This document shows positions 18,502 through 39,801 of a DNA stretch of 40,583 bases, in pieces. Position 1 is the stretch's first letter; each line of letters opens with the position of its first letter. The notes under the pieces were generated by a model, which was not told the origin of the DNA, did no database searches, and saw only the letters and a list, made by a program, of their open reading frames with translations. The position numbers and the translations under genes were made by a program. Location of the stretch: positions 1-40,583 of the IMG/VR virus record IMGVR_UViG_3300035701_000096; one strand, written 5' to 3'. The DNA comes from a virus.

Positions 18502-19476
18502 TTATGCCGCCACGAGGCCGGACAGTCTGGCGATTGACCGCGGGGACACCGTGTAGATGCCCAGCGGCCAGTCAATCACGGTTCGGAATGCGATACCGCT
18601 TTCGAGTTTGCCGATGTCGTCAACCTCGAGGCTGTAGAGTTGGAAGCCCTTGAGGAACTTGTCCCCCAACTTGACGGCATAGATCGAGGTCGCTGTTCCG
18701 CCTGTCAGTGCGGTACCGTTCGTCAGCTCAACATCGGTGATGATGTTGGTCGCCTGGTCGGCCTTGCAACCGGCGTCGATGATCTTGGGGCCGCCCTCAC
18801 CCCAGGTCACGATGGTGCGCCCGAAGGAATCCTTGGTCGTCGCGTACAGCCCCTTCTGGCGCAAAGCCGAACACCATCGCAGGTAGGTCGTCTCGTTGCA
18901 GATGAACAGGTCGCACCTGTGGCCGTCAGTGCGATGCTGCAACTTCTGGACGTTATCGAGGAAGGTGTCGAGGTTCGCGGAGAGACCGGCTGCGTCGGGC
19001 GAAATGTCCAGCCCAGCCAGGTTGATCTCCTGGGTGGTCGGATAACTGCCCGACTTCACGATTCTCCAGAACAACCCGGAGAAGGCGTTTTCGTCGACCG
19101 TGGGATTGCCGTTGATGAAGTAGTCCTGGAACATGTAGGCCAGGGCTGTGGTCCACATGTCAGTCTGGAGCGCGCGCTGATCGACCACGCTTTCCGCACG
19201 CACCAGTAGCTTGTCCACATCGGTGTACCCGCCCATGTCGAACACGCGCTCCGAAATCGGCTCGACCTGGCCCTTGCTTTCGGCCCAGGGACCGCCGATC
19301 GGGCGGAAGCTCACTGTGGGCAGGCTCTTGGTGCGGATGATTTGGATGGTGAGGGTCTTGCTGTCCTCCCACTGGAGGAGATCCATGATGATCGACTCGC
19401 GGCGGAAGATGTTGATTACCCCTCGCCTGAGGGGGTCCGCAGCCAGCCGTTCATATTCCGCAAGTGTGTAGGCCAT
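18502..19476 (-). CDS. Major capsid protein
   Basis: This 324-residue protein follows the scaffold gene and has a strong ribosome site (GGGAGGT seven bases before the ATG). The layout fits an HK97-fold major capsid protein of the gp5-like group without a long prohead leader: helical N-terminus (EYERLAADPLRRGVINIFRR), E-loop region with IRTKSLPTVSFRPIGG (48-63), a helical P-domain (ANLDTFLDNVQKLQHRT), then the A-domain (CDLFICNETTYLRWCSALRQ) and an end with FRTVIDWPLGIYTVSP. The position scaffold-capsid-small head protein supports the call. Confidence 0.86.
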   Translation of the reverse strand: MAYTLAEYERLAADPLRRGVINIFRRESIIMDLLQWEDSKTLTIQIIRTKSLPTVSFRPIGGPWAESKGQVEPISERVFDMGGYTDVDKLLVRAESVVDQRALQTDMWTTALAYMFQDYFINGNPTVDENAFSGLFWRIVKSGSYPTTQEINLAGLDISPDAAGLSANLDTFLDNVQKLQHRTDGHRCDLFICNETTYLRWCSALRQKGLYATTKDSFGRTIVTWGEGGPKIIDAGCKADQATNIITDVELTNGTALTGGTATSIYAVKLGDKFLKGFQLYSLEVDDIGKLESGIAFRTVIDWPLGIYTVSPRSIARLSGLVAA

Positions 19477-19503: not shown

Positions 19504-20322
19504 TCAGCTCTGGCGACGCTTGGCATTGGCAGCATACCCCTGCTTTAGCATGTCCATCGCTGACTTGCCCTCGAAGCTGGGCGCGCCGTGCCGGCCGCCA
19601 CCCAAACCTCCGAGGCGAGCTGCCGCCCGGTCTCGAGGCGTTGGCTGGGCTTCCTCTTCCTCGCCCTCGCCTGGTTCCTCGCCCTCATCCCTGGCGCTTG
19701 CAGCTTTGCCCGAGGCTGCGCGGTTCTTTTTGGTCAGGATTGCGTGGAGCATCGACTCCATGAACGTAGTCTGATCCCCACGCTCCAGGGCCTGGAAGTC
19801 CACAAGGTCGAACTCCTTGTCGTTCTCCTCCAGGTACGTCTGGTGCCTGTCCATCAGCCCCAGCGCTGCGTCTTGCAGGGTGACTGGTGCGCCAGGTTGG
19901 GTTCGGGCCTCCGGGCTTGGCTGCCTTTCTCTCCCACCTGGCGCTGGCTCCTCGACTGTGCTGAGTACACGCTCAACCGCTGCTTGGCGCAACGCCCGCT
20001 CCTGTTCGGCGGTGATGGTAGCGCCACCGGCTTTCAGATCCGCAACGGTTTTCGACGTGTGTCCCAGCTCATCCGCGATCGCCTTCCGCATCCTGTTGTA
20101 CGCATGGTCGGTAAGGCTCTGTGACGTACTCTGGATTCGCGTCTGCGTCCGCTGATCGAGCTGTTGCAACAGCTTCTGCTCGCGCTGGTCCAGAATCTCG
20201 CCAAGCTCCTCCCGAGTGAGCGCACCGCCACCGTCGCCTGCATCCTCGGTATCCCGGGTTTGGGAACCGTCGCCCCGCTGCCCAGCGGGTAGGTCTGCAG
20301 GCCGGGCAAGCAAGTCACTCAT
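19504..20322 (-). CDS. Scaffolding protein
   Basis: This 272-residue protein lies directly upstream of the capsid gene. It is almost wholly helical and charged: an N-terminal disordered part, coiled-coil stretches (ELGEILDQREQKLLQQLDQR, 35-75) and an acidic run (DEGEEPGEGEEEEAQP) followed by a basic C-terminus (QGYAANAKRRQS), the usual capsid-binding end of scaffolds. The ATG at 20322 is supported by GAGGAGG five bases upstream. It is the first gene after P3 and the terminator at 20338-20380, so its expression probably needs read-through. Confidence 0.8.
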   Translation of the reverse strand: MSDLLARPADLPAGQRGDGSQTRDTEDAGDGGGALTREELGEILDQREQKLLQQLDQRTQTRIQSTSQSLTDHAYNRMRKAIADELGHTSKTVADLKAGGATITAEQERALRQAAVERVLSTVEEPAPGGRERQPSPEARTQPGAPVTLQDAALGLMDRHQTYLEENDKEFDLVDFQALERGDQTTFMESMLHAILTKKNRAASGKAASARDEGEEPGEGEEEEAQPTPRDRAAARLGGLGGGRHGAPSFEGKSAMDMLKQGYAANAKRRQS

Positions 20323-20337
20323 TCCGGCCTCCTCGTG

Positions 20338-20380
20338 AAACAAAAAGCCCGCGGGACGCCAACACTGGCGTCTGCCGCGG
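20338..20380 (-). terminator. Intrinsic terminator in the scaffold leader
   Basis: On the minus strand CCGCGG-CA-GACGCCA, loop GTGT, TGGCGTC-CCGCGG forms a 13-bp stem with one two-base bulge, followed by GC and TTTTTGTTT. This is the best terminator of the window. It lies between promoter P3 and the scaffold ribosome site, so it also acts on P3 transcripts. Confidence 0.85.
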
Positions 20381-20409: not shown

Positions 20410-20438
20410 AGTCTAGCACGTCAGTATCCCCCTGTCAA
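20410..20438 (-). promoter_or_regulatory. Promoter P3, extended -10
   Basis: TTGACA (20433-20438) and TAGACT (20410-20415) are spaced 17 bases apart and the -10 is preceded by TGC, an extended -10. The -35 is inside the last codons of the giant gene. The start point would be near 20403, about 80 bases before the scaffold ATG. The element GTGCTAGACTGC matches the P4 element at all but one base. Confidence 0.78.
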
Positions 20439-23400
20439 TGCCTGCTCAAAAAGCGGGCTGACGTAACTCTGCATGAACGCTTCGACGTTCCCGCCCGCCA
20501 CCTGCTTTGCGTCGAGGATCTGCTGTAGATAGGCTGATGTCCCAGCCGGCAGTGGCGAGTTGCTGGTGACTGCCGAGTAGATCCGCCGCTGCATACTGGG
20601 TGTCAGCTCCGCCAACACAGCCTGCCCGATCGACATGTAATCCTGCTGGGAGAACTTGGCCGCACTGATATAGGGCGCCACGTCTGGGTGATCCACCTTG
20701 TACTGCCTGCTCCACGCCCAGTAGGCCTCCAACTCAGGGAATTGCAGCCGATAGGCTCGCTTCTCGGCCGCCGTCTCTTTCTCGTAGTACCCCGCCTGGA
20801 TGGCATACCAGTTGGGATACTTGGCGTCCCTAGCATTCCGGTAGTCGGTGATGGCCTTCGAGATCGATTCGGGCAGCAGCTCGCCCTGCTGCGCCAGGCT
20901 TGGAACCTCCCCGGCCTGCCCAACCTCTTGCATGGATGGGATAGTTTTGCCCAGCATCTTAGCCCAAACGGCCAGGGTTTCTGTGTCGATCGCGTCGTAG
21001 GCGCGGGTCTCTTTGTTCAGGAACGCCAGCTGGAAGTTGTCGCCCAGCGCGTCCCGGGCGACCTCGCGGTTAGCCCGGTCCAGCGCGTTGTACCCAGCCC
21101 ACACCTTGTCCACGAGGAACCGGCGCAGCCGGTCGGCTGGTTTATCCATCAGCCCCAGCCGCGCTGTGTATTCCGGGTGTGCGTCGAAGAACTTGCCGAT
21201 CGCGTCGGTCTGGCCAGAGTCATAGGCAGCCCCAGCCAGCTTGTATTCATTGGCCAGCGCCCGCTGCTTGGCCTCGCCCGTTGGCAGAGTGTCGCCCGGC
21301 AACCCGATCCAGGCCGTGTAGGTACCGACTGCCATAAGCTTCACCGCCCGCGCCTTGGCCTCCTCGTACACCGGCCCAGCATGAGCCGTCATGGCATTCT
21401 CGGCATCGTCCACAGTGATTTCCCCGTCACCGGCCATATTGGTGATCTCGCGGTCGACCCGATAGACGAACCACTTGTCGCCCTCTGGCATCCCCAGCAT
21501 CTTGCGCACCGGCGCCTCGATGTTCACCCCGCCTGGTTTCCAGAAGGCCGTGGCTGCCTGGATGAGCCGGGTCAAGGGCAGTGGAGAAATATCGCCCTTC
21601 TGGCCAGTCAGGAAGTCATAGGCCCAGGTGACGGGCAGCGCCGGTGACACCAACATGCTCATGTAGTCGAATGGATCTCCGACCTCGTTTTGCAGGTCGA
21701 GTTTGGCCTGGCCCACAGCCCGCTGCCAGAGATCCCCGGTCTTGGTCTGGACCGCGGCTGCTGCATCCTCCCGCGTGGCCTTGCCGTCCTGCACCCAGCT
21801 GGTCAGGATGAACATGGCCGACCGCTCGATCGTGGTCTGGTCCTGGATCATCTGGTCCTGGACCTGGAAGAACTGCTCAGGCGGGAACAGCTGGCGCATG
21901 GGATCAACCCAAATACCGTCTCCCATCCATTCGGGCAGGAATGGCATCGGGATCTGCACCTTGTCGCGCAGCCTGGTCGGGAAGCCCTGGATGGGCATGG
22001 ACCCCTGGAGCTGCCGAATGCGGGCATAGTTGGCGAATATCGCCGGCTTGTCGAGCATCGAAAAGGCCCACTGCAAGGGGGTCCGGCTGTACCAGAACAT
22101 ATAGGGCAGCAGTGCCCCGCCCACGTTGTCGAACCCGTAACGCCGGCTGTAATTCAGCAGGGCTGCATCGCGCCTGTTCTCGCCCCAGCGAATAGCCGCC
22201 ATCTTGGTGGTGCCCATTTCGCCCTGTACGCCATTCAGCCAGCCCTCCAGGGCCTGCCGTGACGCCGGAGGCAGATCACCCACCCCAGCGGCTCCCCCGA
22301 CCCGCTCCGGCCTGCTCAGCACTTCCTGCAGGGCAGTCAGCGTCGGGTCTATGCGACTATTCCAGAACTCCTCGGCCGCCTTGCCCATAAGCATGGGTTG
22401 GGGCGTAGACCCGAACGGCGCAATCCCGGACGCCTTGAGACTGTCAGTAGCCTCGCCCGTCACTGGAATGCGGCGCACAACCCCATCCCCGAACTCGAAC
22501 AGCCACTCGTTGGGATTGTCCATCGCCAGGCCCAGCACCCGGGCTGGCCCCTTGGCCGTGTTGAACCAGTCCGACTTCACGCCCTCGGGCAGATAGGCCT
22601 CCATCTGCCCGTAGCGCCCAGCTTCCCGGTCGACCTTGAAGCCGCCAAAGTCCTTTGGCTCTACTGGCCGCACGGCCAGGCTGTCCTCGTACAGGTGGCG
22701 CGATCGTTCCGGCCAGCCGAACGAATACTCGGGTCCCTTTGGCGCATTCCAGAAGCCGCTGGTGTTGGTTTGTACCATGGACTGGACACTCTTGCCGGCG
22801 AGATCCACTACATCCTTGAAACTACCCGAGAGGACGAAATCCCGCAGGGCTTCGATCGTTGCATCGGGCATAGCCGCCATGTCCGGCACGACCAGGAAGG
22901 CGTTGCTCGATCCCATTTTCCGGCCGTTGTAGCGAATGAACGCTCTCAGTAGCAGGTTTGCCCGAGGCTCAACCCCGCCCGTCTGCCGCCATGGCCCGAT
23001 ACCCTCCGGCATTGGAATGTCCACAATCCCGCGCACATTCAGCCTGGCGCTGGCAAAGATTAGCATTGCCTTAGACTCTGGCCGTTCTGCCATCAGCCCC
23101 TTGGCCAATTTTATGACATCCGCAGGCCCCACTATCCGCTCACCCAAAATCGCGTGTGGCTTCGACGGCTGCAGTAGCTCGTCAACCCAGCCCACTGCCA
23201 TCGACTCGGGCATAACTTCCATCTCGATCGCAACGGATTTGGTGTAGCCTCGCGCAGATCCTCCAGCCACGCTCACATCAGCGAACGCTCCAGGACTCAC
23301 GGTCTCAGGGCGAATCACTGCGTACTTGCCGCTGTCAACTACCAGGTGGCCCTTGAAGCCAGGTAGGCTCTTGGCAATCCAGCCGGTTGTTGCTATATCC

Positions 23401-26400
23401 TCCGGCGAGGGTCCAGGGTCCCCGCTGGGATGGTTGTGCAACAGGTAATAGCCGTCCGCGTCGTAGGCATCCATCGTGCTGCTCGCCCACTCGAACAACT
23501 CTGACTCCCATAGGTCCTTGGCCGGCACCCCGCTCGTCTCGAACGGGTAGGTCACGCCCGGCAACCTGGACGAATAGGCACTCTCAGCCACAACCCTGCC
23601 GTTCTTCACGAACAGCCACCGGAAGGTCTCGAACCGCGGGTCCCTGTAGATCTGCCCCAGATAAGCCACGTCCCTGGGTGTCGCTATCCGCTTGCCGATC
23701 AGCCTTCCGACGCCTGTATTCTGCAGCTCCTCAGCAATCGCCTTACCCAGAACGTCCGACGCCTGGCCCTTGAAAACAGCGTCCATGAGCGCGCTCTTGG
23801 CTAGGTCCCGGACTTCTGGTGTTGCATCCTTCCGCCAGCTGAACAGCGGCTCGGTTGGCTTTATCTTACCAATGCCCACGCCGGGCACTTCCGCCTCAGA
23901 GGGCTTGAAACTCCAAGCCTGACCGCTTACCTCAGCTCCATCAGTACCCCTCAGGACTACCATCTCGCCCATGGGGTCCCAGCCGACCACGGTTCCGGCA
24001 ACGATTCCACCGTTGACCTGCTGCACTGTTCCCCTCATGCCGATCCTGATGCTGGCTGTCTTGACCGACTGCAGCGCCAGATCCACAGCCTGGCGGTTGG
24101 AGAACGTCAGCACGTCGATCGGTGCCATGAGACCGTCCACCTGCACCCGCGCTCGCACAGGCATGATCCGGTAGGCCAAGCCGGAGGTAGAAAGCCTCTC
24201 CAGCTCGGCGGCAGATCCCGACAAGGCCCAGCTGACGGCCCCAGTTTCTGACGTAATTCGCAGTAGATTTACAGGCCCGCGCGCCTGGCTTATGACTTTC
24301 GTCGCCCGGAAGTCCACATCAGCCGGCTCGAGGATGGCCCTGTAGGCACCTTCCCCTTCCCCGATGGGCCTCGGCTTCACTTCCGACTGCAGACCTGGCA
24401 TTGCTCGCCGCAGGATCGCCTCCCTGTCTGGCGGCAGCCCGTCTGGGATGTAGCGCGTTTCCGCCTTCGCCTGTTCCAGCGCAGCCTCAGCATCCAGCAA
24501 TCCCTTCCGCACTGGCTCAGCGTCGGCCTCCAGCCTCTTGATTACCTTGGTCATATTGGCGGCCAGCTCAGCATCCGCCGCCTCGGCAGACTTCGCCATG
24601 CGGGTCGCCGTGTCGATGTGGTCGTTGATCTCGGTCAACCGGGTCCGCAGATGCTCCACATCCAACTGGCGCACAACAACCCGGTTGGAGGCGTCCAACT
24701 GCTGCGCGAACTCAGTCGCTCGGATACGTCCTGTCAATCGGCTCAGTAGATCGCCCTTGGTTGGGTCGCCTTCGACCTGTGCCTTGAGGGCCGTCAACTC
24801 CTCCAGGCTCATCCCGTCCAGCCTTGTGGTCAGCGCCTCGTCAAAGCCAACCAGCGCTGGAGGCTCACCTTTGACCTTGATGGGCTGCATTGCCTCGATC
24901 GGCGGCCTCATACCAGGCAGCGCGTCCTGCGCGAACACGTCCTCCGGCATGAACGGGTCCTGAGTCACACGCTGCGCGGCACCCGACCACAGGGGCAGGT
25001 CCTCGCCCTGGGTCCACATCGTTCCCTGGCCAGCAATCTCGGTCTTTGTGAGGGTGCCGGAACCCATGGTTGCATCTGCCTCTGCCTGGGCGCGCAGTTG
25101 CTCAACGGCCGGCCTCACCTGCTCAGCAACGTCGCCTGGCAGGGCGCGCAGTGCGTGGGCCTTGACGAATGTCGTCTCGCCGTTCGCCAGCCTGACCTCG
25201 GCCAGGGGCATACGGAATGGCCAGCTTCTCCACTCGGAGAGGAACTGCCCCTCCTGGACATCGCCAGGCGTCAGCTCGACGCCAACCCGAGCATTCTGGT
25301 CAAGCGTTCTGTACCACTCGGCCCACGCCTTGGCTGCCTCCGGCTGAACTTCAACGCCGGGGTAGCGGTAGTCGTCCAGGGTCCACAGATCATCCAGGGG
25401 CCGGGTGTCAACCTCGCCCGCTGCTGTCTGCACCCGGTAGAGAGGCGTCCCATCCGTACCCATTGTCTGGCTAACGATCGTGCCCACCTGCTTGGTTGAC
25501 TGAATGCGCACCAACGCGCCAATGCGCTCCGGTATTCCTGGGTCCTTGAAGGGGATGCCGCGCAGCATGGCGTCGGGTAGCGGGTCCACACCCTGCTGAA
25601 TGACGCCGATGAGCTTCTGGCCCTTCCAGACCGTCAGCCGTCCGTCCAGGTCGATACCCAGCTGAGAGTCCGGGTAAGTGCGGCGCAGATTGGAGTATGT
25701 TGCGCCAGAAACCCATGTCTGGCGATCGCCTGCCGATAGCCTTACCTTGGCCGCGCCATCGTAGGCTGGGTCGAATCCGTACTCGATCTTATCCAGCCAC
25801 TGTTGCACATGAAACTGCCGGCCCTCGACCACCACAGGCTCCAGCTGTCCAATCCCACCAGCGTTGAGATCTGGCATGTAGGGCAGTGTTGTCTGCGCAC
25901 CGGCGATAATTCGCTGATCCATCGACCGACCGAAAGCTAGGCCCTCCAGCTTGATGCGAAGGCGCTCCAGGGCCTGTCTCACAGCCGGGTCCCCGCCCGC
26001 CTTGAGCTGGCTATAGAGGATCTGAACACCCGACTGCGCTGCTTCCACCCACTTGCGATCGTGCGGCTCACCACCTGGCAAGCGCGCCGTCAGCAGATCC
26101 TCGATCTTGCCCACCTGGGCAAGTACTGAGGAATCCGGGACCTCGACCGTCTTGAGAGGGGCAACCCCAGCAGCGGCTTTGAGTCTGGCATCGAACTCTG
26201 CCACCCTGGTTCCAAACGCCTGGTCGGGCGCCCAGCCACCACGGACAGCGGCCATCACCGCCTCGTCCTCCATGCCCAGTGCCAGCAGCAGGCGCGGATC
26301 CAGAGGCAATTCCCCGGACGCTGGCCCCCGGCCCATCGCCGCGTCCAGGATGGTCGCCTTGAGCTTTTCCACCAGGGCGCCCTTGTCTCGGCCAGCGTCC

Positions 26401-29400
26401 TCGATGATCTTGTTGACCGCTTTCATCACATCGTCAAACGGGCGGTGCAATGCCGACATCCAATCCGGGTACATGTTGATGCCGCTCAGACCCTGGAACT
26501 CACCACGCGCCACAGCCTCCAGCCGCGCTCGCATGGCGGCTGCGGCTTCCGCGAATGCCTGCGAGGCCTGGGCGTCGATCCGGTCCCGGCCGAGTTTGGT
26601 GAGATCCTGCCGTGCCGCCTGCCTAGCCGTCACCACATCGCCAGCCTCGATGCCCAGCGCCTTCGAGACTCCATCCGCCCAGCGCGCATCAGCGTCCAAC
26701 CCGATCGCTCGGATTGCCTCATCCTCGGGAACCATCGCCAGAGAGGTGGCAACTGGTGCGCCCTCCCCTCGGTGCCTGTTCACGGCCGCCAGGATGTCAG
26801 CTTCGGACGTGCCCAGGCTGTTGGCCTTTGCGTATGCCTGCACCCGCGCCAGGTCTATCGGTGCCGGGGTTGATGGTTTGCCCGATAGCTGCGCGACCCG
26901 TCTTTCAACTCCCGCCAGTTGGGCCTCGATCGCTGTGCGCGCAGCCGGCGTCAGGTCCACCCCGTTCACGTCCTTGCCTACCTGGAGCGTCGCACGCATA
27001 CGATCGACTGCACCCTTGCCACGCAGCAACTCATCTGCACCCACCCGCGTTGTCAGCGCCTGCACCGCCTCAGTGAATGGCACGTCCGCCTCGGTCGGAT
27101 AAGCTGGCAGCCCCTGGCGGATCCGGTCCGCGTTGACCGCATTCAGTAACCCGCGTCGCCCGCGTGTCCAGCCCGCCTGTCTCAACCCGTCCGTGTCGAG
27201 TTGATCCATCGTCGCCGGCCCGCCTTCGGGCTTCGGAGCGACAGGGCCAACTTCCTGGCCCTTTTGTTCTAAGGCCCCTGCCTGCTCCAGCTGGGTGGAT
27301 ATGACCTTCCGCCCAGCCACGGCTGCCTCATCGGCCGCCTTGGCCTGGGACCAGGCATCCAGGGCTGACTTGAGAACCGCCGTTCGCTGCGGCGTCGGGT
27401 TGTCGAACGCGAACTGGTCAATCAGTGGTGTATTGGCCGGCCGGAACTGATTGATCTCTGGCAGTCGAGCCAGCAGGGAAGTCCGAGTCTCGAGGCCAGC
27501 GGCTGCCATCGCGGCCACAACCTCTGCCCGCGCAGGTGGCACCCTGGCCATGATCTTGTTGGTCTCGAAGTTGAACTTGGTCTCAGACCCCAGCGGTATC
27601 CGGGCACCCTGCGGGACCTCGACCCACTCCGGGCCAAGTTGCAGCTCAGGAGCTGCTGCGCCCACGCCTGGCGCCGCCCTTGCTGCAACTCCGCCCGGTG
27701 CCGGGGACGGAGGCCGGGAAGGAGGTAAACCAGCCCCCGCTGGCCGCGGCCCACCTGCACCTGGTACCTCAGGAGGTCCAGCCAGTGGCAATTGTCCCGG
27801 CCCACCAAGGCCAGGCCAACCCCAAATGGATGTCGGACCCGCCCTCTGGCGCTCGAAGAACTCAGCGATCGAAGGCAGGTATTGCTTGTCGAGGAAGTTT
27901 CGCCAGGCTGCATCCCTGGTTGGTGCGTCCATGTGGACCAACGTCTTGCGGAAGTTGGCCATCATCATGGCCATGTCGTCACGGAAGGATCTCAGCCCAT
28001 CCCGCCACGTCTTGACGCGGGCAGCTGTGGCCGGATCGCCCTCCGACCTGAACAGGCGCACCAGGGCCTCGTCGAACGCTTCCTGCGCTGCCCTGGCCTG
28101 CCCGTTGGCTTTGGCGTACTCCACGTCCATGCGCTCGTTGAGGTCGATCCATGACTGGCCGCGGCGTACCGGGTCCTCGAACTCAGGCGATCGGAAGAAC
28201 TTGCGATACTCCTCGCTCCGGTACTTGAAGAACCCATCCCACGTCTTGCGGACGCCGGCAAAGGAGTCGACCATGCCATCGGGGACGCGCACACCCTTGG
28301 CAGTCAGTCCGTCGGAGATACCCTGCAGCGTGGCTTCCTGGTAGGCCCACATACGCCGGGCCTCGCTGTTGGCCTCCGCGCTCCGCGCTTCGATCAGAGG
28401 ACCAGAGTCTGTGCGCTGCCTGGCCTCCTCGAACGTGCGCTGCCACTTGGCGAAATGGCTGTTCCACCACTCCTCAGCGTCGGTCATCGAGCCGAAGAAC
28501 AGATCCGCCACCGCCCCGTACCCCTCAGCTTTCACTCGTTCAGCTGCATACTCCGCAACCTGGCGCCACTCCTCGGTCTGCTGTTTCTCCAGTTGGCCCA
28601 TCACGTTGCGCCGCAGGTCGGCAAAGACCCCAGCCACCTTGTCAGGCGTGTTGGCCTTGGGCAGCCTAGCGTTGAGGAAGTCGGCCACATTCATGGTGCC
28701 CAGTAGATCCCGCAACTCGGTCTCCGCAATGCCCAGCCGGCTGGCAACCTCGGGGACGGCACTCTCGGCCGTCTTGACCACGGCCTGCCCTAGAATGTTG
28801 CCCAGGATCTCCTTGCCATTCAGCCCAGACTCGATGGCGCCGTAGATCAGGGGCGGCAGGTTCGGGTTGATCCCGCCCAGTGCGCTCTCCAGGTCCGGGG
28901 GCATAGCGGAGTACCCCGTCCCCTTGTGCCACAACCTGGCCCACATCTGCTTGAAGCCGCTGGTAAATGCCCGAGCACCGTTCCACTGCTCCATCGACCG
29001 GGCCATTCCCAGGAAAATGCCTACCTTGTCGCTCAGTCCGGCGACTTTGTTGTTGAGCTTGGACCAGACATCATCCACCTGGGTGGCAGCTCTTAGCGTC
29101 CTCTCACCTGCCACAGTGATGTCGCCTGGCATATCGGCCGGACCGATGCCAGCCCTGAGCCGGTAGGGGTCCACGCCCACACGCCTCCAGTAGGCGTCGA
29201 TCTGCTCTGGCATCCACAGGCCCCACACGCCCCGGGCAGCCATCGAGACCTCGTTGTTGACCCAGTTGTTGAAGAAATACACGGGGTTGAGGCCCAGCAA
29301 GACCAGGGACTGGATGCCCTTCATGGTCTGAGCCATGCGCAGTACGGTCGGCTCAGCCTTTATGCCGAAGTGGTCGACCGACCAGTGCGCGTAATGGTCC

Positions 29401-31940
29401 ACCAGACCAGAGATTGCGTCCGAAATCCACAGGTCCGGGCGCCAGGGGACTGACTCCTTGACGTAGATCCGCTCCGCGTCGGCCAGCGCTTGGCCGCTGA
29501 ACTCGCCCCGCCTGGCTGCCTCGATCAGTGTGTCACCCTCGGCCGTTCGGGTAGTCTTGGCTGCATCCAGGACGCGCTGCACCAGCACTTCCATGTCGTC
29601 AGCCGATCGTAGCGCCTTGATTACCTCCTCGGGCGTGGTGCCCAACGCCACGGCCATGTTGCTCAGCATCGTCCGCTGGGGCAGTGTCGCCTCCCATAGC
29701 TCGACCTTGGCGGCCATCATGTCCTTGGCGCCCCGGCCGGCCAGTGCAACGAAGTAACCCTCTGGCCCTGCCAGGAACGTGGAGCTGAGCTGGGCGGCTG
29801 TCTCAACCGGCGTGTCGACCCAGGAGTTGAATGCCTTGCCAGCCTCGACTGGATCGGTGAACCGGCCCATCAGCGTCTGGATGTTGTCGCTGGCAAAGCG
29901 CATGACCTCGGAGGCCTTGGCCTGCGGCGTTTCGCTGAACAGGTAACGCAACCCCGGGATTCTTGCGAACCACGGTTCTCCGATTCCTTTTGGTAGATTC
30001 TCCTGCGTCACAGGCTGCGTCCTGGTGGTCCGCTCCCCGAACCTTGCCAGCCACTCCTGGGCAGCATAATCGTTGGCTCCATTAGGCAAGAGAGGAGTAG
30101 GCTTCTTTCCCTGCTCAATCAGTCGGGCATTGTCAACCCCCATGGCAAGGATCAGATCTTCCTCGTTCGCCCTGGCCGTCAAGGCATGAGCCTTCTGGCC
30201 TACCTCGACTTCCTGTGCCCTGCGCCGTGCGAGATACTCTGGATCACCAGCGTTATACTTTTCTATGTCCAGCCAGTCGAGCTTCAGCGCACCTAGAGAA
30301 CGCCCGAGAGGGGTTTCAATCGGCTGCCCTCCACTAGCTGCGGTTGTCGCCCGACCAGCAATTTCTATCGCTCTCTCGCCTGCGGACAGGGGAACCTCCC
30401 CGCCAGCTGACTCCGTAAGCGGGATCAGCATTCCACTAACTTCTTTTGGCAATCCCTCGGATGTCAGGCCAGCAAACCAGCGCTCAGTCGCACTCATGCT
30501 GCTCAGCTCGGGTGCCGTCCCTGCCATGCCCGTCCGCACAAATGCGCGGTACGCCTGTATCGCCTCGCCCGGTCCCCTGGTCGCCTTGAACGCATCCGCC
30601 AGTGCGTAGTTGCCGGAAGCCAGAGACAGATCCTCGCCCACCCGGTTCGTCGCTTGTGGCAGCACATTGAGGGGATCGAATACCACCTGGCCCAGCAGGT
30701 TGCGCGCCTGGCCGTCCAGTCCCATGCGCGATTGGATGTCCCGATAGACGGTCTCTGGGTCCTCTCGGCGTTGGATGCGGTTTGCCGCTTCCACCAGCGC
30801 TGCCATACCAGCCGCACCCTCGATCTCCTGCCGGCCCGGCGCTGCCTTGCCCGGCTCCAGGTAGGTCGTGGTCTTGGGTGCGCCCACCAGTCCGAACGGG
30901 CCTTCGCCCACGTCATAGGTGAGCTTGGCTGCTCGCCACATTGCCGGCAGGTCAGCCTGTGCTGCCTCCTGCGGGTGGCCCACGCCGTAGGCCGCAATGC
31001 TCGCTGTACCCCATGCCTGCTCGACACCCTCAGCCAGCGCGTTGAGTTTCAGCAGGGCAGCATCCAGGGCATCCGGCTTAGCCACGCCCAGGGTAGCGCC
31101 AACCACAGCGCCCAGGATACCAGCTGGCAGCCCGATCTCCGGGCCGAACATCATGCCAAAACCGCCCGCCAGTGTCCCGCCCATCAGCGCGCCACCAGCC
31201 AGCCCGCCCACAGGGCCAGGTATCGCCTGGCGTATCGCCTGCCCAGCTCCAGTCGCCAGGCCGAAGCCAGCGCCAGCAAGCGCACCGGCCGGCCCACCGT
31301 ATGCCAGGCCAATGGCGCCGCCCATCGCGGTAGGCATCGCAACACTGGACGCCGGGCTGGCCTCAAAGCGGATAACCCACTTCTTCCACGGCTCCAGCGC
31401 ATTCCAGTCGGTCTCGGTGAATCCGTACAGGTTCTTGGCAACGCCAGGCGCATAGCCGCCCACCTGCTGTTCGGAGGGGTTCAAGAACTCAGACGGGGGC
31501 GACCCCATCTGCTGCAGGAAGTCGCGTCCAGGATCTGCTGCGTTGAGGAACTTCCACTCGCTCCAGGGCTGCCCGCCGTTGCGATATTGCAGGTACTTGT
31601 ACGCTGCCGTCAGCTGGTCGACGTTCAACCACTCAGGCGCCTTCTCCCCCTTGGGTAGCGCTTGCAGTGCCAGGTATGTCTTTGCGACACGGCGAGGATC
31701 TTCCCAGTAACCCGGCACATAGCCCAACGACTTCATGGCTGCTTCGCTGGGCGCCTTGAGTTGTGCCGCCATCCAGTCCTGGCCCTTCCCATAGCGCTGG
31801 GCTATGGCCAGGACATCGGTCATGTACCGGCGATAATACTCGTTCGGCTCCGGCTCGATCCTCGGAGGCTCCGGCGCATAGGTAGGCTTCTCGCCCCAGA
31901 ACGCCAGCAGGCGAGGATCAGGCGGGGGTTTGCTTGTCAC
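20421..31940 (-). CDS. 3839-residue giant polyvalent-type protein with RadC-like JAB domain
   Basis: One uninterrupted frame of 3840 codons, about 28 per cent of the window. The GTG start at 31940 overlaps the preceding stop as GTGA. Visible parts: a Gly/Ala-rich membrane-active-like segment (about residues 195-290, AMGGAIGLAYGGPAGALAGA and GGFGMMFGPEIGLPAGILGA); helical virion-like regions (300-1350); a Pro-rich linker (about 1370-1430); SH3-like strands near 2100-2250 and 2600; a coiled coil near 2440-2500; a JAB/MPN domain at about 2755-2880 with LLHNHPSGDPGPSPED, the JAMM zinc and catalytic motif; a second, related but motif-less copy at about 2920-3090 (RIVGPADVIKLAKGLMAERP); and a C-terminal structural region. 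Such multi-domain phage proteins are called polyvalent and are thought to be packaged and ejected into the host. The JAB domain would be a peptidase or a processing enzyme. No polymerase, helicase or transglycosylase motif is evident. Confidence 0.85.
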   Translation of the reverse strand: MTSKPPPDPRLLAFWGEKPTYAPEPPRIEPEPNEYYRRYMTDVLAIAQRYGKGQDWMAAQLKAPSEAAMKSLGYVPGYWEDPRRVAKTYLALQALPKGEKAPEWLNVDQLTAAYKYLQYRNGGQPWSEWKFLNAADPGRDFLQQMGSPPSEFLNPSEQQVGGYAPGVAKNLYGFTETDWNALEPWKKWVIRFEASPASSVAMPTAMGGAIGLAYGGPAGALAGAGFGLATGAGQAIRQAIPGPVGGLAGGALMGGTLAGGFGMMFGPEIGLPAGILGAVVGATLGVAKPDALDAALLKLNALAEGVEQAWGTASIAAYGVGHPQEAAQADLPAMWRAAKLTYDVGEGPFGLVGAPKTTTYLEPGKAAPGRQEIEGAAGMAALVEAANRIQRREDPETVYRDIQSRMGLDGQARNLLGQVVFDPLNVLPQATNRVGEDLSLASGNYALADAFKATRGPGEAIQAYRAFVRTGMAGTAPELSSMSATERWFAGLTSEGLPKEVSGMLIPLTESAGGEVPLSAGERAIEIAGRATTAASGGQPIETPLGRSLGALKLDWLDIEKYNAGDPEYLARRRAQEVEVGQKAHALTARANEEDLILAMGVDNARLIEQGKKPTPLLPNGANDYAAQEWLARFGERTTRTQPVTQENLPKGIGEPWFARIPGLRYLFSETPQAKASEVMRFASDNIQTLMGRFTDPVEAGKAFNSWVDTPVETAAQLSSTFLAGPEGYFVALAGRGAKDMMAAKVELWEATLPQRTMLSNMAVALGTTPEEVIKALRSADDMEVLVQRVLDAAKTTRTAEGDTLIEAARRGEFSGQALADAERIYVKESVPWRPDLWISDAISGLVDHYAHWSVDHFGIKAEPTVLRMAQTMKGIQSLVLLGLNPVYFFNNWVNNEVSMAARGVWGLWMPEQIDAYWRRVGVDPYRLRAGIGPADMPGDITVAGERTLRAATQVDDVWSKLNNKVAGLSDKVGIFLGMARSMEQWNGARAFTSGFKQMWARLWHKGTGYSAMPPDLESALGGINPNLPPLIYGAIESGLNGKEILGNILGQAVVKTAESAVPEVASRLGIAETELRDLLGTMNVADFLNARLPKANTPDKVAGVFADLRRNVMGQLEKQQTEEWRQVAEYAAERVKAEGYGAVADLFFGSMTDAEEWWNSHFAKWQRTFEEARQRTDSGPLIEARSAEANSEARRMWAYQEATLQGISDGLTAKGVRVPDGMVDSFAGVRKTWDGFFKYRSEEYRKFFRSPEFEDPVRRGQSWIDLNERMDVEYAKANGQARAAQEAFDEALVRLFRSEGDPATAARVKTWRDGLRSFRDDMAMMMANFRKTLVHMDAPTRDAAWRNFLDKQYLPSIAEFFERQRAGPTSIWGWPGLGGPGQLPLAGPPEVPGAGGPRPAGAGLPPSRPPSPAPGGVAARAAPGVGAAAPELQLGPEWVEVPQGARIPLGSETKFNFETNKIMARVPPARAEVVAAMAAAGLETRTSLLARLPEINQFRPANTPLIDQFAFDNPTPQRTAVLKSALDAWSQAKAADEAAVAGRKVISTQLEQAGALEQKGQEVGPVAPKPEGGPATMDQLDTDGLRQAGWTRGRRGLLNAVNADRIRQGLPAYPTEADVPFTEAVQALTTRVGADELLRGKGAVDRMRATLQVGKDVNGVDLTPAARTAIEAQLAGVERRVAQLSGKPSTPAPIDLARVQAYAKANSLGTSEADILAAVNRHRGEGAPVATSLAMVPEDEAIRAIGLDADARWADGVSKALGIEAGDVVTARQAARQDLTKLGRDRIDAQASQAFAEAAAAMRARLEAVARGEFQGLSGINMYPDWMSALHRPFDDVMKAVNKIIEDAGRDKGALVEKLKATILDAAMGRGPASGELPLDPRLLLALGMEDEAVMAAVRGGWAPDQAFGTRVAEFDARLKAAAGVAPLKTVEVPDSSVLAQVGKIEDLLTARLPGGEPHDRKWVEAAQSGVQILYSQLKAGGDPAVRQALERLRIKLEGLAFGRSMDQRIIAGAQTTLPYMPDLNAGGIGQLEPVVVEGRQFHVQQWLDKIEYGFDPAYDGAAKVRLSAGDRQTWVSGATYSNLRRTYPDSQLGIDLDGRLTVWKGQKLIGVIQQGVDPLPDAMLRGIPFKDPGIPERIGALVRIQSTKQVGTIVSQTMGTDGTPLYRVQTAAGEVDTRPLDDLWTLDDYRYPGVEVQPEAAKAWAEWYRTLDQNARVGVELTPGDVQEGQFLSEWRSWPFRMPLAEVRLANGETTFVKAHALRALPGDVAEQVRPAVEQLRAQAEADATMGSGTLTKTEIAGQGTMWTQGEDLPLWSGAAQRVTQDPFMPEDVFAQDALPGMRPPIEAMQPIKVKGEPPALVGFDEALTTRLDGMSLEELTALKAQVEGDPTKGDLLSRLTGRIRATEFAQQLDASNRVVVRQLDVEHLRTRLTEINDHIDTATRMAKSAEAADAELAANMTKVIKRLEADAEPVRKGLLDAEAALEQAKAETRYIPDGLPPDREAILRRAMPGLQSEVKPRPIGEGEGAYRAILEPADVDFRATKVISQARGPVNLLRITSETGAVSWALSGSAAELERLSTSGLAYRIMPVRARVQVDGLMAPIDVLTFSNRQAVDLALQSVKTASIRIGMRGTVQQVNGGIVAGTVVGWDPMGEMVVLRGTDGAEVSGQAWSFKPSEAEVPGVGIGKIKPTEPLFSWRKDATPEVRDLAKSALMDAVFKGQASDVLGKAIAEELQNTGVGRLIGKRIATPRDVAYLGQIYRDPRFETFRWLFVKNGRVVAESAYSSRLPGVTYPFETSGVPAKDLWESELFEWASSTMDAYDADGYYLLHNHPSGDPGPSPEDIATTGWIAKSLPGFKGHLVVDSGKYAVIRPETVSPGAFADVSVAGGSARGYTKSVAIEMEVMPESMAVGWVDELLQPSKPHAILGERIVGPADVIKLAKGLMAERPESKAMLIFASARLNVRGIVDIPMPEGIGPWRQTGGVEPRANLLLRAFIRYNGRKMGSSNAFLVVPDMAAMPDATIEALRDFVLSGSFKDVVDLAGKSVQSMVQTNTSGFWNAPKGPEYSFGWPERSRHLYEDSLAVRPVEPKDFGGFKVDREAGRYGQMEAYLPEGVKSDWFNTAKGPARVLGLAMDNPNEWLFEFGDGVVRRIPVTGEATDSLKASGIAPFGSTPQPMLMGKAAEEFWNSRIDPTLTALQEVLSRPERVGGAAGVGDLPPASRQALEGWLNGVQGEMGTTKMAAIRWGENRRDAALLNYSRRYGFDNVGGALLPYMFWYSRTPLQWAFSMLDKPAIFANYARIRQLQGSMPIQGFPTRLRDKVQIPMPFLPEWMGDGIWVDPMRQLFPPEQFFQVQDQMIQDQTTIERSAMFILTSWVQDGKATREDAAAAVQTKTGDLWQRAVGQAKLDLQNEVGDPFDYMSMLVSPALPVTWAYDFLTGQKGDISPLPLTRLIQAATAFWKPGGVNIEAPVRKMLGMPEGDKWFVYRVDREITNMAGDGEITVDDAENAMTAHAGPVYEEAKARAVKLMAVGTYTAWIGLPGDTLPTGEAKQRALANEYKLAGAAYDSGQTDAIGKFFDAHPEYTARLGLMDKPADRLRRFLVDKVWAGYNALDRANREVARDALGDNFQLAFLNKETRAYDAIDTETLAVWAKMLGKTIPSMQEVGQAGEVPSLAQQGELLPESISKAITDYRNARDAKYPNWYAIQAGYYEKETAAEKRAYRLQFPELEAYWAWSRQYKVDHPDVAPYISAAKFSQQDYMSIGQAVLAELTPSMQRRIYSAVTSNSPLPAGTSAYLQQILDAKQVAGGNVEAFMQSYVSPLFEQALTGGY

Positions 31941-32941
31941 CGGCGCACCACCCAGCGGGTCAACGCTCCGGTCCACTTGGGCGTGTAGCTGCCGCCGCCA
32001 CCGCCACCGTAATCCCACCAGCCCTTCGGCTTGGGTTTCTCAGGCGGAGGAAGGCCAGCGTAGGCCGGCACAGTAGGCGCGAAGCCCGGCGCACCGTGCA
32101 ACAGATCTGGGTTCCCAAACCACTGCTCGGGCGTCAGCCAGCTGGCCAGGTAGGACGGGATTGCGCCCTGTCCGATCGGTGCCTGGTTCGCACTTGCACC
32201 TAGCGACCACTGAAGCTTCTGCCCGAGGTCCAGCAGCCACTGCGGCATATCGGGCCTTGCCGTTGGCACCGGAATATCTGCCGGTCGCTCACCTACTGCG
32301 TCCGGGCTGCCCGGCTCGACTGGGTGGCCCTGGGCGTCGACCTGAATGATCCCGTTGGCGTCGGTCATGGCCACGGCGTCCGGGCTGCCAACTGGCACAA
32401 CCTGCCCTATGATGTTGACGGGCACTGCTCCGACGCCAGGATGGATACCCAGCGCCCCGCCCAGCAGGCCGCTCACAATATCAAGCGGTGTCTTAGTCTT
32501 GGCCTCCTTGGCCCGCACCGCATTCCAGTAGTCCGCTCGGTTTTGCTCCTGCTCGGCCCGCGTTGGCCCCAGTTGTCCGGTGTACGGGTTGAACGGTTGC
32601 CCGCCCTGGTTGGGTGTGGCACCCACCAGCGGGTATGTCGTCCCTGGCTGCAACGGCTGGCCGCCCCAGTTCATGTTCCCCAGCCCCTGCAGCAGCAACG
32701 GACCCAGTAGCGGGATCTCACCCAGCCCCTGCATCCAGGCTGGCATCCCCTGGTTCTGGGACCCAAGCCCGGTCAGGTTACGCCCGCCCGTTGTGACTGG
32801 CCCCCGTTGGGTAGGCGCCACGTTTCTCCCACCCTGTAGCCACCAGGGCAGCGGAGCTGGTACAACTGGCTTGGTTTCCGGGTGTGGCGTCCACGGTAGA
32901 TACGGCTGTCCACCCCCACCACCCTCAGCAATCATAGGCAT
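31937..32941 (-). CDS. Gly/Pro-rich virion-associated protein
   Basis: This 334-residue protein sits between the portal-side gene and the giant gene. It is rich in Pro, Gly and Gln (MPMIAEGGGGGQPYLPWTP, and GGQPLQPGTTYPLVG-like stretches) with one hydrophobic glycine-rich segment (about 155-195, LGGALGIHPGVGAVPVNIIG). A basic, Gly-rich end overlaps the giant gene start. It looks largely disordered and could be a minor head protein or partner of the giant protein. Family not recognised. Confidence 0.68.
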   Translation of the reverse strand: MPMIAEGGGGGQPYLPWTPHPETKPVVPAPLPWWLQGGRNVAPTQRGPVTTGGRNLTGLGSQNQGMPAWMQGLGEIPLLGPLLLQGLGNMNWGGQPLQPGTTYPLVGATPNQGGQPFNPYTGQLGPTRAEQEQNRADYWNAVRAKEAKTKTPLDIVSGLLGGALGIHPGVGAVPVNIIGQVVPVGSPDAVAMTDANGIIQVDAQGHPVEPGSPDAVGERPADIPVPTARPDMPQWLLDLGQKLQWSLGASANQAPIGQGAIPSYLASWLTPEQWFGNPDLLHGAPGFAPTVPAYAGLPPPEKPKPKGWWDYGGGGGGSYTPKWTGALTRWVVRR

Positions 32942-32942
32942 G

Positions 32943-33179
32943 TCAAACCTCCTTGATCCGCCCTAGCCGGCGCAGGTGCTCCTCGATCGTCCTGTATATC
33001 TCAGGCTCCTCGAGTTTCACCTTCTGCTTGAGCTGCGGTGGCAGGTAATCCCACGCCCTCACCAGCAGCGCGGCCTTGCCCTCCGCAGTTTCCTCCGCGT
33101 TCATCCTGGCCTCCCACTCCTCGTAGCGGGCAAAGCCCAGGTTGATAGCATCGTCAATCCGCTCCAAGACGCCAGGCAT
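32943..33179 (-). CDS. Small helical head protein candidate
   Basis: This 78-residue protein overlaps the portal stop in a TGATG arrangement. It is fully helical and charged (MPGVLERIDDAINLGFARYE, EEPEIYRTIEEHLRRLGRIK). The place directly after the portal suggests a small head-completion or portal-associated protein. Family not recognised. Confidence 0.68.
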   Translation of the reverse strand: MPGVLERIDDAINLGFARYEEWEARMNAEETAEGKAALLVRAWDYLPPQLKQKVKLEEPEIYRTIEEHLRRLGRIKEV

Positions 33180-35017
33180 CAGGCGCCCCCTTCCGCTCCA
33201 GGCTCACCCCGCGGCGGAAGCGGTTGGCTCTCCGGTGGCCCGACTGGCTGCATAACGCCCGGCGCCCTCATGGCCCCAGCGGCACCAGCACCCTCTGGCG
33301 TAGCCGTAGGCGCCACACCCTGCCCACCAGCTCCACCTGGTACTGGTGTCCCACTAGCTCCGCCACCTGTCATAGCCCGGGCCTTCGCCATGCGCGCTGC
33401 CGTCTCTTGCTCTTGCCTGGCCCGGATTGCTGCCAGGTTCTCCTGCAACTTGTCCGTGAAGCGGGCATCCATTGCGCGCTCGCCCATGATCTCGTCGTCC
33501 ATCGCATCGCTGTCCTGCACGTTCATCAGCTTTTCACGCGCCCAGCGCCGGCTGGCCAGTGGCCGCTCGCCGCCCGTCGCTGCCATCGCTTGCGTGACCA
33601 TCGTCTGCATGTCCTGCGGCAGTGCCAGATCCAGCCGGGCCTCGATCTCGAAGCGCTCCGGGATCAGGCTTGGGTCAAACGTGTACTCTCCGGTTAGGTT
33701 CTTCACGCTGTAGGTCTTGGCCTCGTCTTTCAGCCACAGCAGCGCGATCTTGGCCGCCGTCCCTATCGCCCACCCGCCCAGCCGCTGCGTTGACACCAGC
33801 GGCAGCCGGCCTGCCTGGTGCAGCAGCGCGACCATGCTGTACGGCGCCTGCGCACCCATGGGCTGGCCCAACGCCTGCCGGTAGATCGTCACGTCCTGGA
33901 TGCTCTTGTTGGCTATCTCCAGGCCCTGGCTCAGTGATGCGTCGATCGCGTTCTTCGCCAGGGGCTGGATACTTTCGTTTGGCCCGATGTTGTAGAAGCC
34001 GCCCATCACCGACCAGTCCGGCGTCAGCTTCTTGCCCGCCTCGTTCGCCTGGTAGACAAACATCGGGTTGGCGCCGATGGCAAACAGGGCTGTATACATG
34101 ACCGTCAATGCCAGGTTGGCCCGGTTCCACATGCCGGACTTTATCATGCTGTAGAGGAACGGCCGGCGCTGGCGCTCTGGCTGCCAGAACAGCCGGGACC
34201 CCTCGGTGATCTGGGCTGCAATCGGGATGCGCCGCAAGCCGTGCTTGGCCATCAGGATCGGCTCGCCAGCTCCAGCTCCACCCGCGCCTTCGACCCAGAC
34301 CACATGCCAGATACCATCCCACCAGCGCCCTAGCGTCAGCTCCTTGCCGCGTTTCTCGCCGGCCAGTACAGCCTCGGCCGCCTCTCCGAAGTCGTCCATC
34401 ACTCGCCCGGCCGTGGTTGTCAGGTGCTGGTGGTAGATCCGCAGCCCCAGGCGATCCCAGAAGGGATACCCGCCGTGCGGATTCAGGCATTCGAAGATAT
34501 AGGGCGTGTCACCCACTGCCTCTGTGATCCGGGCTTTGTCCTCGTCGCTGGCCACCAGCAGCATATCAGCCAGGCGCGTCACCAGGATATGCGCCTCCGC
34601 GTACATCAGGGCGCTCAGGGCTGCATCGAAGTGGACCGGTTGCTGAGCCAGGCGCCCGCTCGACTGCCACATGATCCGCGCCATCTTCTCAACCTGGGCA
34701 CTGGTAGCCTTGGCCTGCCCGCTGTTCTTGTCGAACGGGATCTCGAACTGCGGGTCCGTCGCTATCATCAGGCGCAGGGCACCCACCAGGCCGATTGCAC
34801 CCTCCGGCGAGATGGTCAGCTTCACGTCATCAGCCAGGCCCGCCCGCTCGGAGTCCTGCCAGTCCATGAAGTAGGCATCCTCGCACTCGACGAACAGTGC
34901 GTCCCGCTTACTGTGGTCGGTCCGCAACTTGAGCGCATCGACTCTGATCTCCTCCCACTTCGCCAGGTCGATCGTTCCGCCCGATACGTTCGCCTGCTTA
35001 CGTCTCGGCTTGGCCAT
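33179..35017 (-). CDS. Portal protein
   Basis: This 612-residue protein follows the terminase large subunit with no gap. It has the helical wing and stem layout of portals: an N-terminal part with LAKWEEIRVDALKLRTDHSK, a beta-rich region (WWDGIWHVVWVEGAGG), a stem/crown region (SLSQGLEIANKSIQDVTIYR) and a C-terminal helical and Gly/Pro-rich tail (about 545-612). Length fits podovirus and siphovirus portals with an extended C-terminus. It forms the dodecameric DNA channel on which the terminase docks. Confidence 0.84.
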   Translation of the reverse strand: MAKPRRKQANVSGGTIDLAKWEEIRVDALKLRTDHSKRDALFVECEDAYFMDWQDSERAGLADDVKLTISPEGAIGLVGALRLMIATDPQFEIPFDKNSGQAKATSAQVEKMARIMWQSSGRLAQQPVHFDAALSALMYAEAHILVTRLADMLLVASDEDKARITEAVGDTPYIFECLNPHGGYPFWDRLGLRIYHQHLTTTAGRVMDDFGEAAEAVLAGEKRGKELTLGRWWDGIWHVVWVEGAGGAGAGEPILMAKHGLRRIPIAAQITEGSRLFWQPERQRRPFLYSMIKSGMWNRANLALTVMYTALFAIGANPMFVYQANEAGKKLTPDWSVMGGFYNIGPNESIQPLAKNAIDASLSQGLEIANKSIQDVTIYRQALGQPMGAQAPYSMVALLHQAGRLPLVSTQRLGGWAIGTAAKIALLWLKDEAKTYSVKNLTGEYTFDPSLIPERFEIEARLDLALPQDMQTMVTQAMAATGGERPLASRRWAREKLMNVQDSDAMDDEIMGERAMDARFTDKLQENLAAIRARQEQETAARMAKARAMTGGGASGTPVPGGAGGQGVAPTATPEGAGAAGAMRAPGVMQPVGPPESQPLPPRGEPGAEGGA

Positions 35018-36538
35018 CTATAATCTCCCTCGCCGGCCCAGCCGGCTGATTGGTGCCCTCGTGAAGTACTGCTCCTCCGCTGGTGTCCTGCGCTGCTGAG
35101 GCGTCAGGTAGGGCGTGATGTTGGTCAGCCCGTATCTCACCATGTCGTAGGGGTCGTCGCCCTCCACCTTCTCTACGTCCTCAGGGTTGAGCCTCGAGCG
35201 CACCAGGTTAGCCATCACCCGGATGAACCACTGGCAGTCAGTGTCCACAATCAGGCCCGGCTTCCCGTCAGCCAGGGGTGCCAGGAGCCGATCCAGCTTC
35301 CGCTTCCCGTTCACCCGGTCGTTGTCAGCTTTGGTCAGTACTACGCCCTCGGCTGCAAACTCGTCGGCTGCCGTGCTCACCACGTCTGCCACGTTCTTCC
35401 TGGCCCACATGTCCGGGCTGGCGTAGGTAATCCGGATCAGCTCATCGGGTGCCGTCAACTCCTTCATGCGCCGCGCCTGTTGCCGGTCGGTCAGCCCACT
35501 GGCGTTCTCCTCCCGGTACATGAACACCCGCCCATTGTCTGGATCCCTGGCGAACCAGCCCATATCGGCCGGGTGAACATAGCCATAGTCCATCGCTCGC
35601 CACCTGATGTATGTCCCTGGCAGCAGGCCCAGCTGCTCGGTGTGCTTCTCGACGTTCCACTGCGCGAACGCCTGGCCACTAAATACATTCCAGTTGCCCT
35701 CCAGCAGGGCCTCCGCCAGGCTGGTCTCGCGCTCTCTCAGCCGGCTCTTGTAACCTGGGTCCCTGGCCATGCCTATAACGTTGTCGTCAGCGAACGCCCG
35801 CAGCATCCAGGTCTTGCTCCGCTTCCCGTTCGGGTTCACAATCTCCCGCACCTGCTCGCTGGCGCCCGGGTCGATGAACATGGCTTTGTACCAAGCATGG
35901 CCCACGCCGCCCGGGTTGGCTGCCAGCACAGCGAACGGGGTCAGCCCGCTCACCGTCGCCCGGTTCCTGCTCAGGATATAGTCGATCATGTACCAGGTGA
36001 ACTCCGTCGCCTCATCGCCCAGCACAACGTCGATCTGCCAGCCGTGGTAGCTGAACACGTCCGACTCGTACTGGCAGTGGCAAAAGAATGTCTTGGATCC
36101 GCCCGGCCAGTCCCACCTGTGCGCGCTCTGGTTGTAGATCCCGATCCCGCTCCACAACTCCTGACTGCGCTGGATCAGGCCACCAGCTCCGCCCAGCTCT
36201 GTGAACGTGCGCCGGAAGATTGCCACGTTGCTGCCTGGGTAGCTCAGGGCAATGGCGCCGGCGATGCCCAGCAACCCGTCCGTCTTGCCTCCGAACGCAG
36301 CCCCACCGTAGCCGATCAATGGCGCGATCGGTGGCTGAGGCTTAGCGCCCTCGAGCACGGCACCCAGCAGCCCACAGGCAGCCAGCAACTTAGCCTGCTT
36401 GGGCTGGGGGCGCCAGGGCAGCTCGTTCGGCGTCGGTATCTTCTGAGACAGGGACCAGCCGTCCAGGAATCGCGCTACGGATTCGCTGGATAAAAGCCCT
36501 TCGCTGCTCGGGGTCAGGAATGAAGTCACGGACAGCAC
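35018..36538 (-). CDS. terL: Terminase large subunit
   Basis: This 506-residue protein packages DNA. The ATPase part has a deviant Walker A (GYGGAAFGGKTDG, residues 76-88), Walker B (IDVVLGDEA, 169-177; Asp-175/Glu-176) and coupling motif (LAANPGG, 205-211). The nuclease part has AMDYG (Asp-317), ASPDMW (Asp-376) and DDPYDMVRYG (Asp-465), the RNase H-type acids. It overlaps the small-subunit gene by 149 bases in a different frame. The start is uncertain: GTG at 36536-36538 or the GTG three codons later (36527-36529), which has GGAG at better distance. Confidence 0.93.
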   Translation of the reverse strand: MLSVTSFLTPSSEGLLSSESVARFLDGWSLSQKIPTPNELPWRPQPKQAKLLAACGLLGAVLEGAKPQPPIAPLIGYGGAAFGGKTDGLLGIAGAIALSYPGSNVAIFRRTFTELGGAGGLIQRSQELWSGIGIYNQSAHRWDWPGGSKTFFCHCQYESDVFSYHGWQIDVVLGDEATEFTWYMIDYILSRNRATVSGLTPFAVLAANPGGVGHAWYKAMFIDPGASEQVREIVNPNGKRSKTWMLRAFADDNVIGMARDPGYKSRLRERETSLAEALLEGNWNVFSGQAFAQWNVEKHTEQLGLLPGTYIRWRAMDYGYVHPADMGWFARDPDNGRVFMYREENASGLTDRQQARRMKELTAPDELIRITYASPDMWARKNVADVVSTAADEFAAEGVVLTKADNDRVNGKRKLDRLLAPLADGKPGLIVDTDCQWFIRVMANLVRSRLNPEDVEKVEGDDPYDMVRYGLTNITPYLTPQQRRTPAEEQYFTRAPISRLGRRGRL

Positions 36539-39588: not shown

Positions 39589-39801
39589 TCATCCCTGGCC
39601 GACCCAGACAACCGAGGGCGCCGCCTCCACGGCTACCAGGATCTCGTCCAATCCGCCCTCGGCGCGCAACTGATCCAGCCGCCGCCAGCGCTCCTCTCCG
39701 CCCTCAGTCTCGACCAGCAGCCAGTGGCATGGATCATCTGCCCAGTTCGAGTCACGCCCAACGATCGTCACTTCCCTGCCCATGCGCGTGTGGATAGTCA
39801 T
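39589..39801 (-). CDS. Small hypothetical protein
   Basis: This 70-residue protein starts at an ATG overlapping the DUF932 stop as ATGA. It begins MTIHTRMGREVTIVGRDSNW and has a beta-strand plus helix pattern (WLLVETEGGEERWRRLDQLR). The layout is like small SH3-type or binding modules. Not recognised. Confidence 0.62.
   Translation of the reverse strand: MTIHTRMGREVTIVGRDSNWADDPCHWLLVETEGGEERWRRLDQLRAEGGLDEILVAVEAAPSVVWVGQG

Follow-up and report, generated by a model that had tools for sequence, protein, structure and literature searches.

The giant gene of the analysed DNA (the window: a whole IMG/VR record of 40,583 bp from a small tailed phage, more than a quarter of which this gene occupies) belongs to a family of giant phage proteins that has apparently not been described before and whose fixed scaffold for delivery would enclose an exchangeable enzyme slot. 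We consider it likely that the product is a polyvalent protein delivered by the virion, its conserved N-block, N-core and C-block forming the scaffold and being packaged and injected together with whatever the slot contains. A preliminary description made from the sequence had already called the protein polyvalent-type. Family membership, the site in the head gene cluster and the effector domains found at the same place in relatives bear this out; the assignment comes through the relatives and not from this sequence alone. The window protein itself carries one domain of the polyvalent repertoire, the RadC-like JAB listed in the accessible text of PMC5512222.

The frame runs without interruption on the minus strand from 32018 to 20421 (3865 codons from the first GTG), and the plus strand of the giant-frame interval is full of stops. 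Because it aligns with homologous giant ORFs at about 60 viral loci, the frame is coding and not a product of chance, and the single giant gene of the preliminary description is genuine. At 31940 an in-frame GTG shares the sequence GTGA with the stop codon of the gene upstream (31937-32941). Since such an overlap is typical of a coupled start, 31940 is likelier than 32018 and is probably the start of the protein, which would then count 3839 aa and end at the stop at 20421. Residue numbers given here follow the 3865-aa reading; subtraction of 26 converts them to the 3839-aa numbering.

Table 1. Features of the giant gene and its neighbourhood in the window
Feature	Positions	Strand	Basis
Giant polyvalent-type protein, 3839 aa (3865 aa from GTG at 32018)	20421..31940	-	frame, start context, homologues
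N-block, residues 98-526, kept in closer relatives	30441..31727	-	profile search
Hydrophobic Gly/Ala-rich segment, about residues 222-318, membrane-active-like	31065..31355	-	translation
N-core, residues 693-1377	27888..29942	-	profiles, length measurements
Variable cargo slot, residues 1378-3212, 1835 aa	22383..27887	-	profile borders
Pro/Gly/Ala-rich linker opening the slot, about residues 1393-1460	27639..27842	-	translation
RadC-type JAB domain, residues about 2755-2905, HNHP at 2861	23304..23756	-	Pfam PF04002, NCBIfam, AF2 model, RadC 2QLC match, alignment
Second domain, residues about 2944-3082, without HxHP...S..D, pseudo-JAB candidate	22773..23189	-	alignment, profile comparison, model
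C-block, residues 3213-3865 (3213-3784 plus tail)	20424..22382	-	homologue alignments
C-terminal repeat unit, about 70 aa, residues 3715-3784	20667..20876	-	profile of conserved part
Large terminase	35018..36538	-	PHROG E 4e-32; conserved next to family
Probable portal gene	33179..35017	-	position, family alignment; weak PHROG portal match of one homologue
Upstream Pro/Gly-rich gene, stop overlaps the giant's start	31937..32941	-	position, translation
Probable scaffold gene, directly downstream of the giant	19504..20343	-	position, homologues
Major capsid protein	18502..19476	-	PHROG E 2e-42; Pfam GP7 E 4e-9
Head-tail adaptor-like gene	16853-17656	-	weak SU10 adaptor match
Large tail gene, without family match	14207-16852	-	conserved order

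No relatives of the window were found at the DNA level, and single-sequence pattern scans with the whole giant protein or the JAB region gave no close relatives. The only annotated relative that tblastn of the window protein detected in the phage collection is the podovirus ctptF532, a circular genome of 41,774 bp present as five records. Its homologue of 2156 aa can be aligned in two parts, the C-terminal 600 aa (32%) and about 690 aa towards the N-terminus (21%), and the genes around it are ordered as in the window. Aligned together, the two proteins served to find 25 viral loci; a deeper alignment raised this to 63. The longest giants met on the same scaffold reach 7021 aa (L012, in a record of 86,691 bp) and 4922 aa (L133, 40,276 bp). 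One homologue of 3311 aa (L028) lies on a bacterial contig of a Chloroflexi rumen metagenome assembly (CADATZ010000005.1, positions 68497-90338). Besides an integrase, this contig of 130 kb holds genes of host type (RNA polymerase beta' and serine hydroxymethyltransferase, as judged by eye), so L028 is probably a Chloroflexota prophage of the giant-scaffold family; it provides a host lead for the phage group.

Wherever the flanks are known, the order TerL, portal, small gene, giant, scaffold, MCP, adaptor and tail gene is constant, and the giant is thus encoded among late or virion genes both in the window and in its relatives. That the giant is flanked by the portal side and by the scaffold had been recognised correctly; the names portal, scaffold and adaptor rest on gene order and weak profile matches. 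The tail gene and the adaptor-like gene are conserved in the whole group. The positional counterpart of the upstream Pro/Gly-rich gene in ctptF532 (L002:18363-19748) contains a LysM domain and also overlaps the start of the giant. Near the record ends a Dam-type adenine methyltransferase and a DUF932 protein are encoded (368-1231, 39798-40583).

Comparison of the giants separates constant ends from a variable middle. At the 52 loci where both slot borders could be measured (a few near-duplicates included), the N-core is 691+-17 aa long and the C-block keeps nearly the same size (length ratio 0.96-1.10), and the slot between them ranges from 118 to 3131 aa with a median of 905 aa. Conservation within the family is highest in the C-block (25-41% identity, conserved stretch of about 570 aa). 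The terminal repeat of the C-block is present in a single copy in the window protein and in up to five copies in relatives, three of which (L006, L007 and L018) continue after up to five repeats into an SLT transglycosylase, an ending to be expected if the protein crosses the cell wall. The hydrophobic Gly/Ala segment reported earlier is present in the window protein and in part of the family only. About 3,700 residues had been described as unrecognised and as possible room for several undescribed effector domains. Roughly half of them can now be assigned to the scaffold, since about 2,000 fall into the N-block, N-core and C-block conserved in relatives; we read these as parts of the delivery apparatus rather than as new effectors.

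The N-core and C-block of the window protein matched no described ejection protein, solved structure or PHROG, and searches for solved structures with the C-block, portal and adaptor profiles and the capsid protein returned nothing useful. The model of the C-block, predicted almost wholly helical, is weak (pTM 0.30), and its fold search gave no match that such a model would allow to count. The possibility that the N-core or C-block is a divergent LPD38 was rejected (profile-profile probability below 1% against LPD38-type C-termini), and the window protein has no LPD38 match in Pfam.

The slot contents differ from locus to locus. Pfam scans of the relatives' slots yielded ART-PolyVal, ddrB-ParB, SNF2/helicase, GGDEF, PBECR5, LPD1, LPD5 and DUF6908, with ART in 11 of 50 records and ddrB-ParB in 4 of 50, all within giant-sized frames. 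Several proteins combine two or more disparate domains on this scaffold (ddrB-ParB and ART in L028, PBECR5 and ddrB-ParB in L013, ART and RadC in L094), and modules common to different slots occur at differing offsets. The commonest module, of about 125 aa, bears an HEXXH motif and resembles a zincin-like metallopeptidase, a name suggested by motif and context in the absence of a Pfam match. It is found in 33 of 37 slots longer than 600 aa and in none of 14 shorter than 400 aa (Fisher p 2e-9), from which it follows that the peptidase comes with the cargo. The 14 members with the shortest slots (118-369 aa) still keep the scaffold, which must therefore also act without cargo.

In the window protein a RadC-type JAB is the single recognised cargo domain. 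The Pro-rich linker noted before does open the slot. Of the slot, residues 1393-2734 (about 1,340) gave no match except for 1849-1915, a helical-looking stretch of 66 aa common to the window protein and L017 only, and a plasmid search with residues 1378-2750 found none. A ZorA match in NCBIfam (E 0.03) was dismissed as a chance, coiled-coil-like hit. Scans of the window protein with Pfam, PHROGs and NCBIfam detected no T7-like RNA polymerase domain.

The JAMM/RadC motif HNHPSGDPGPSPED is indeed present at residue 2861 with its metal-binding part intact. RadC (PF04002) is the only Pfam family that matches the window protein (23.4 bits, cut-off 22.1); the NCBIfam radc match lies under its cut-off. 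A model of residues 2735-3090 (pLDDT 78, pTM 0.69) contains two consecutive domains, both ordered helix-strand-strand-helix-strand-helix-strand-strand. The first superimposes on RadC 2QLC (Foldseek E 3e-5; Z 14.7, rmsd 2.5 over 118 residues; next family Z 9.8), so that by its predicted structure the JAB is of RadC-type fold. Its H-x-H-P...S..D site is complete and the metal ligands are invariant among relatives. The Glu aligned to that of RadC is present in the window protein and absent in most polyvalent JAB relatives, as judged from a short aligned stretch. The two halves compare in register but weakly (profile probability 33%), and for this reason the label pseudo-JAB for the second domain is meant as a suggestion.

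Among plasmid proteins, the closest relative of the JAB module (28% over about 340 aa) is encoded on a conjugative plasmid of Nitrosomonas; the gene of this JAB protein adjoins a zincin-metallopeptidase gene and transfer genes. A profile scan with the module gave 235 viral matches; among the 80 loci taken, most lie within giant ORFs on other scaffolds, where LPD38, LPD5, LPD1, ddrB-ParB or ART, for example, accompany them. RadC-type JABs are hence common in phage polyvalent proteins. In the accessible text of PMC5512222 RadC is listed for polyvalent proteins of conjugative elements only, and its RadC section does mention prophages. Loci L050-L118 show such JABs in many phage giants on several unrelated scaffolds, some of 4000-6300 aa. 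A common origin of the three JABs borne by the present scaffold finds no support in the tree, yet is not rejected (AU p 0.077).

Delivery of the giant has to be weighed against a mainly structural function. The protein might be a part of the ejection machine (internal core or tape-measure-like) with slot domains as minor passengers, and the predicted helical C-block, the position among head genes, the terminal SLT transglycosylases and the retention of the scaffold by the 14 loci with short slots all agree with that. However, the slots are mostly long and rich in known effector enzymes, which argues against mere passengers, and the structural role overlaps with delivery rather than excluding it. 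We regard a mainly structural protein as quite unlikely. Packaging and co-injection are the best reading because of the gene position, the type of cargo and the precedents of JC1 gp69, P1 DarB and N4 vRNAP.

As to the substrate of the JAB, an action on nucleic acid or nucleotides, by which incoming DNA would be protected or processed, is a real possibility. The RadC subfamily assignment and the nearest plasmid relative, situated beside a zincin-metallopeptidase protein in a conjugative-transfer region, both speak for it. A nucleic-acid role was also proposed for RadC in polyvalent proteins (PMC5512222, accessible text), but as a context-based hypothesis, and a dispute over RadC in repair is noted there. 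It is conceivable, if doubtful, that the JAB instead replaces the zincin metallopeptidase in processing cargo. Besides the association of zincin with cargo, this is favoured by the absence of an intact HEXXH from all three JAB-bearing scaffold members (window, L094, L133) as against its presence in 30 of 34 others with a long slot (p 0.0045), a post hoc, exploratory contrast of three cases. L133 retains the zincin module, but with a destroyed motif (HELGH to RNTWD), shortly ahead of the JAB pair. Against replacement, the independent comparison in LPD38-type giants goes in the same direction with p 0.20 only (intact motif in 2 of 6 with JAB, 26 of 41 otherwise; 0 of 4 and p about 0.02 for full-length JABs, after two partial matches are dropped), and an HEXXH string does occur in 24 of 60 JAB giants on other scaffolds. 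Moreover, the accessible text of PMC5512222 argues that RadC JABs have no groove for the ubiquitin tail and work on nucleic acid, which counts against a peptidase role. The reported lack of this groove likewise speaks against a JAB that strips ubiquitin-like modifications of antiphage defence (Bub/Bil, CBASS Cap2/Cap3 type). Cap3, BubCD and a bacterial Ubl deubiquitinase are among the structural neighbours of the model, but RadC is clearly closer, and they rank far under it, in the range of common fold likeness; such a target is very unlikely.

If the protein is delivered as we suggest, it would be made together with the head proteins, probably packed into the capsid in the manner of an ejection protein, and enter the cell with the DNA or ahead of it. 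The cargo would then act before phage transcription; in the window phage its recognisable part would be the RadC-type JAB and the JAB-like domain without active site. A more elaborate scheme, rather improbable as a whole, sees a delivery scaffold with an open cargo bay, in which the ends package and eject, a slot peptidase frees the cargo, and a pair of RadC JAB and pseudo-JAB has replaced a lost or inactivated zincin in a minority of lineages, the window phage included. Were the JAB to have taken over from the zincin, RadC-type JABs would gain a proteolytic function, and the exchange makes the old question of their role testable. From the comparison of slots, candidate early effectors can be listed directly, many of them unknown. 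Should the ends be enough for packaging, the scaffold could account for the delivery of several enzymes along with the DNA by small podophages.

Like the phage-type polyvalent proteins of PMC5512222 (accessible text), the window giant is very large, probably multidomain, encoded among late genes and equipped with JAB/RadC, and its relatives share ART-PolyVal, ddrB-ParB, SNF2, GGDEF, PBECR, LPD and zincin-like domains with them; Iyer et al. (2017) proposed there that a zincin-like metallopeptidase processes polyvalent proteins. Unlike in those proteins, the N-core/C-block scaffold matches no LPD or other described family. The accessible text holds no description of constant ends around a variable slot, and the literature searched contained no paper that connects polyvalent with ejection proteins. 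The JAB shares with RadC (PDB 2QLC) the fold and the HNHPSG..PS..D motif; it differs in identity (about 21%), in its place inside a giant protein and before a second JAB-like domain, in an SSRLPG loop where RadC has KGT, and in that the equivalent of the RadC Glu is unconserved among its polyvalent relatives.

The N4 vRNAP (gp50) has an N-terminal helical injection part, a central enzyme and a C-terminal encapsidation part (PMC5512222, accessible text), a three-part layout like that suggested for the window giant, which differs in having no RNA polymerase or MPTase family match. To the DarB-like giants no homology was detectable (tblastn against the phage collection matched ctptF532 only). The likeness lies in the antirestriction-type domains of JC1 gp69 and P1 DarB and, for the giants of Bcep22-like podoviruses such as JC1 gp69, in a share of about a quarter of a podovirus genome. 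P1 DarB is packaged in the head (PMC9024508), and the DarB-like protein of JC1, 4515 aa long, was found in virions by mass spectrometry (PMC9144972).
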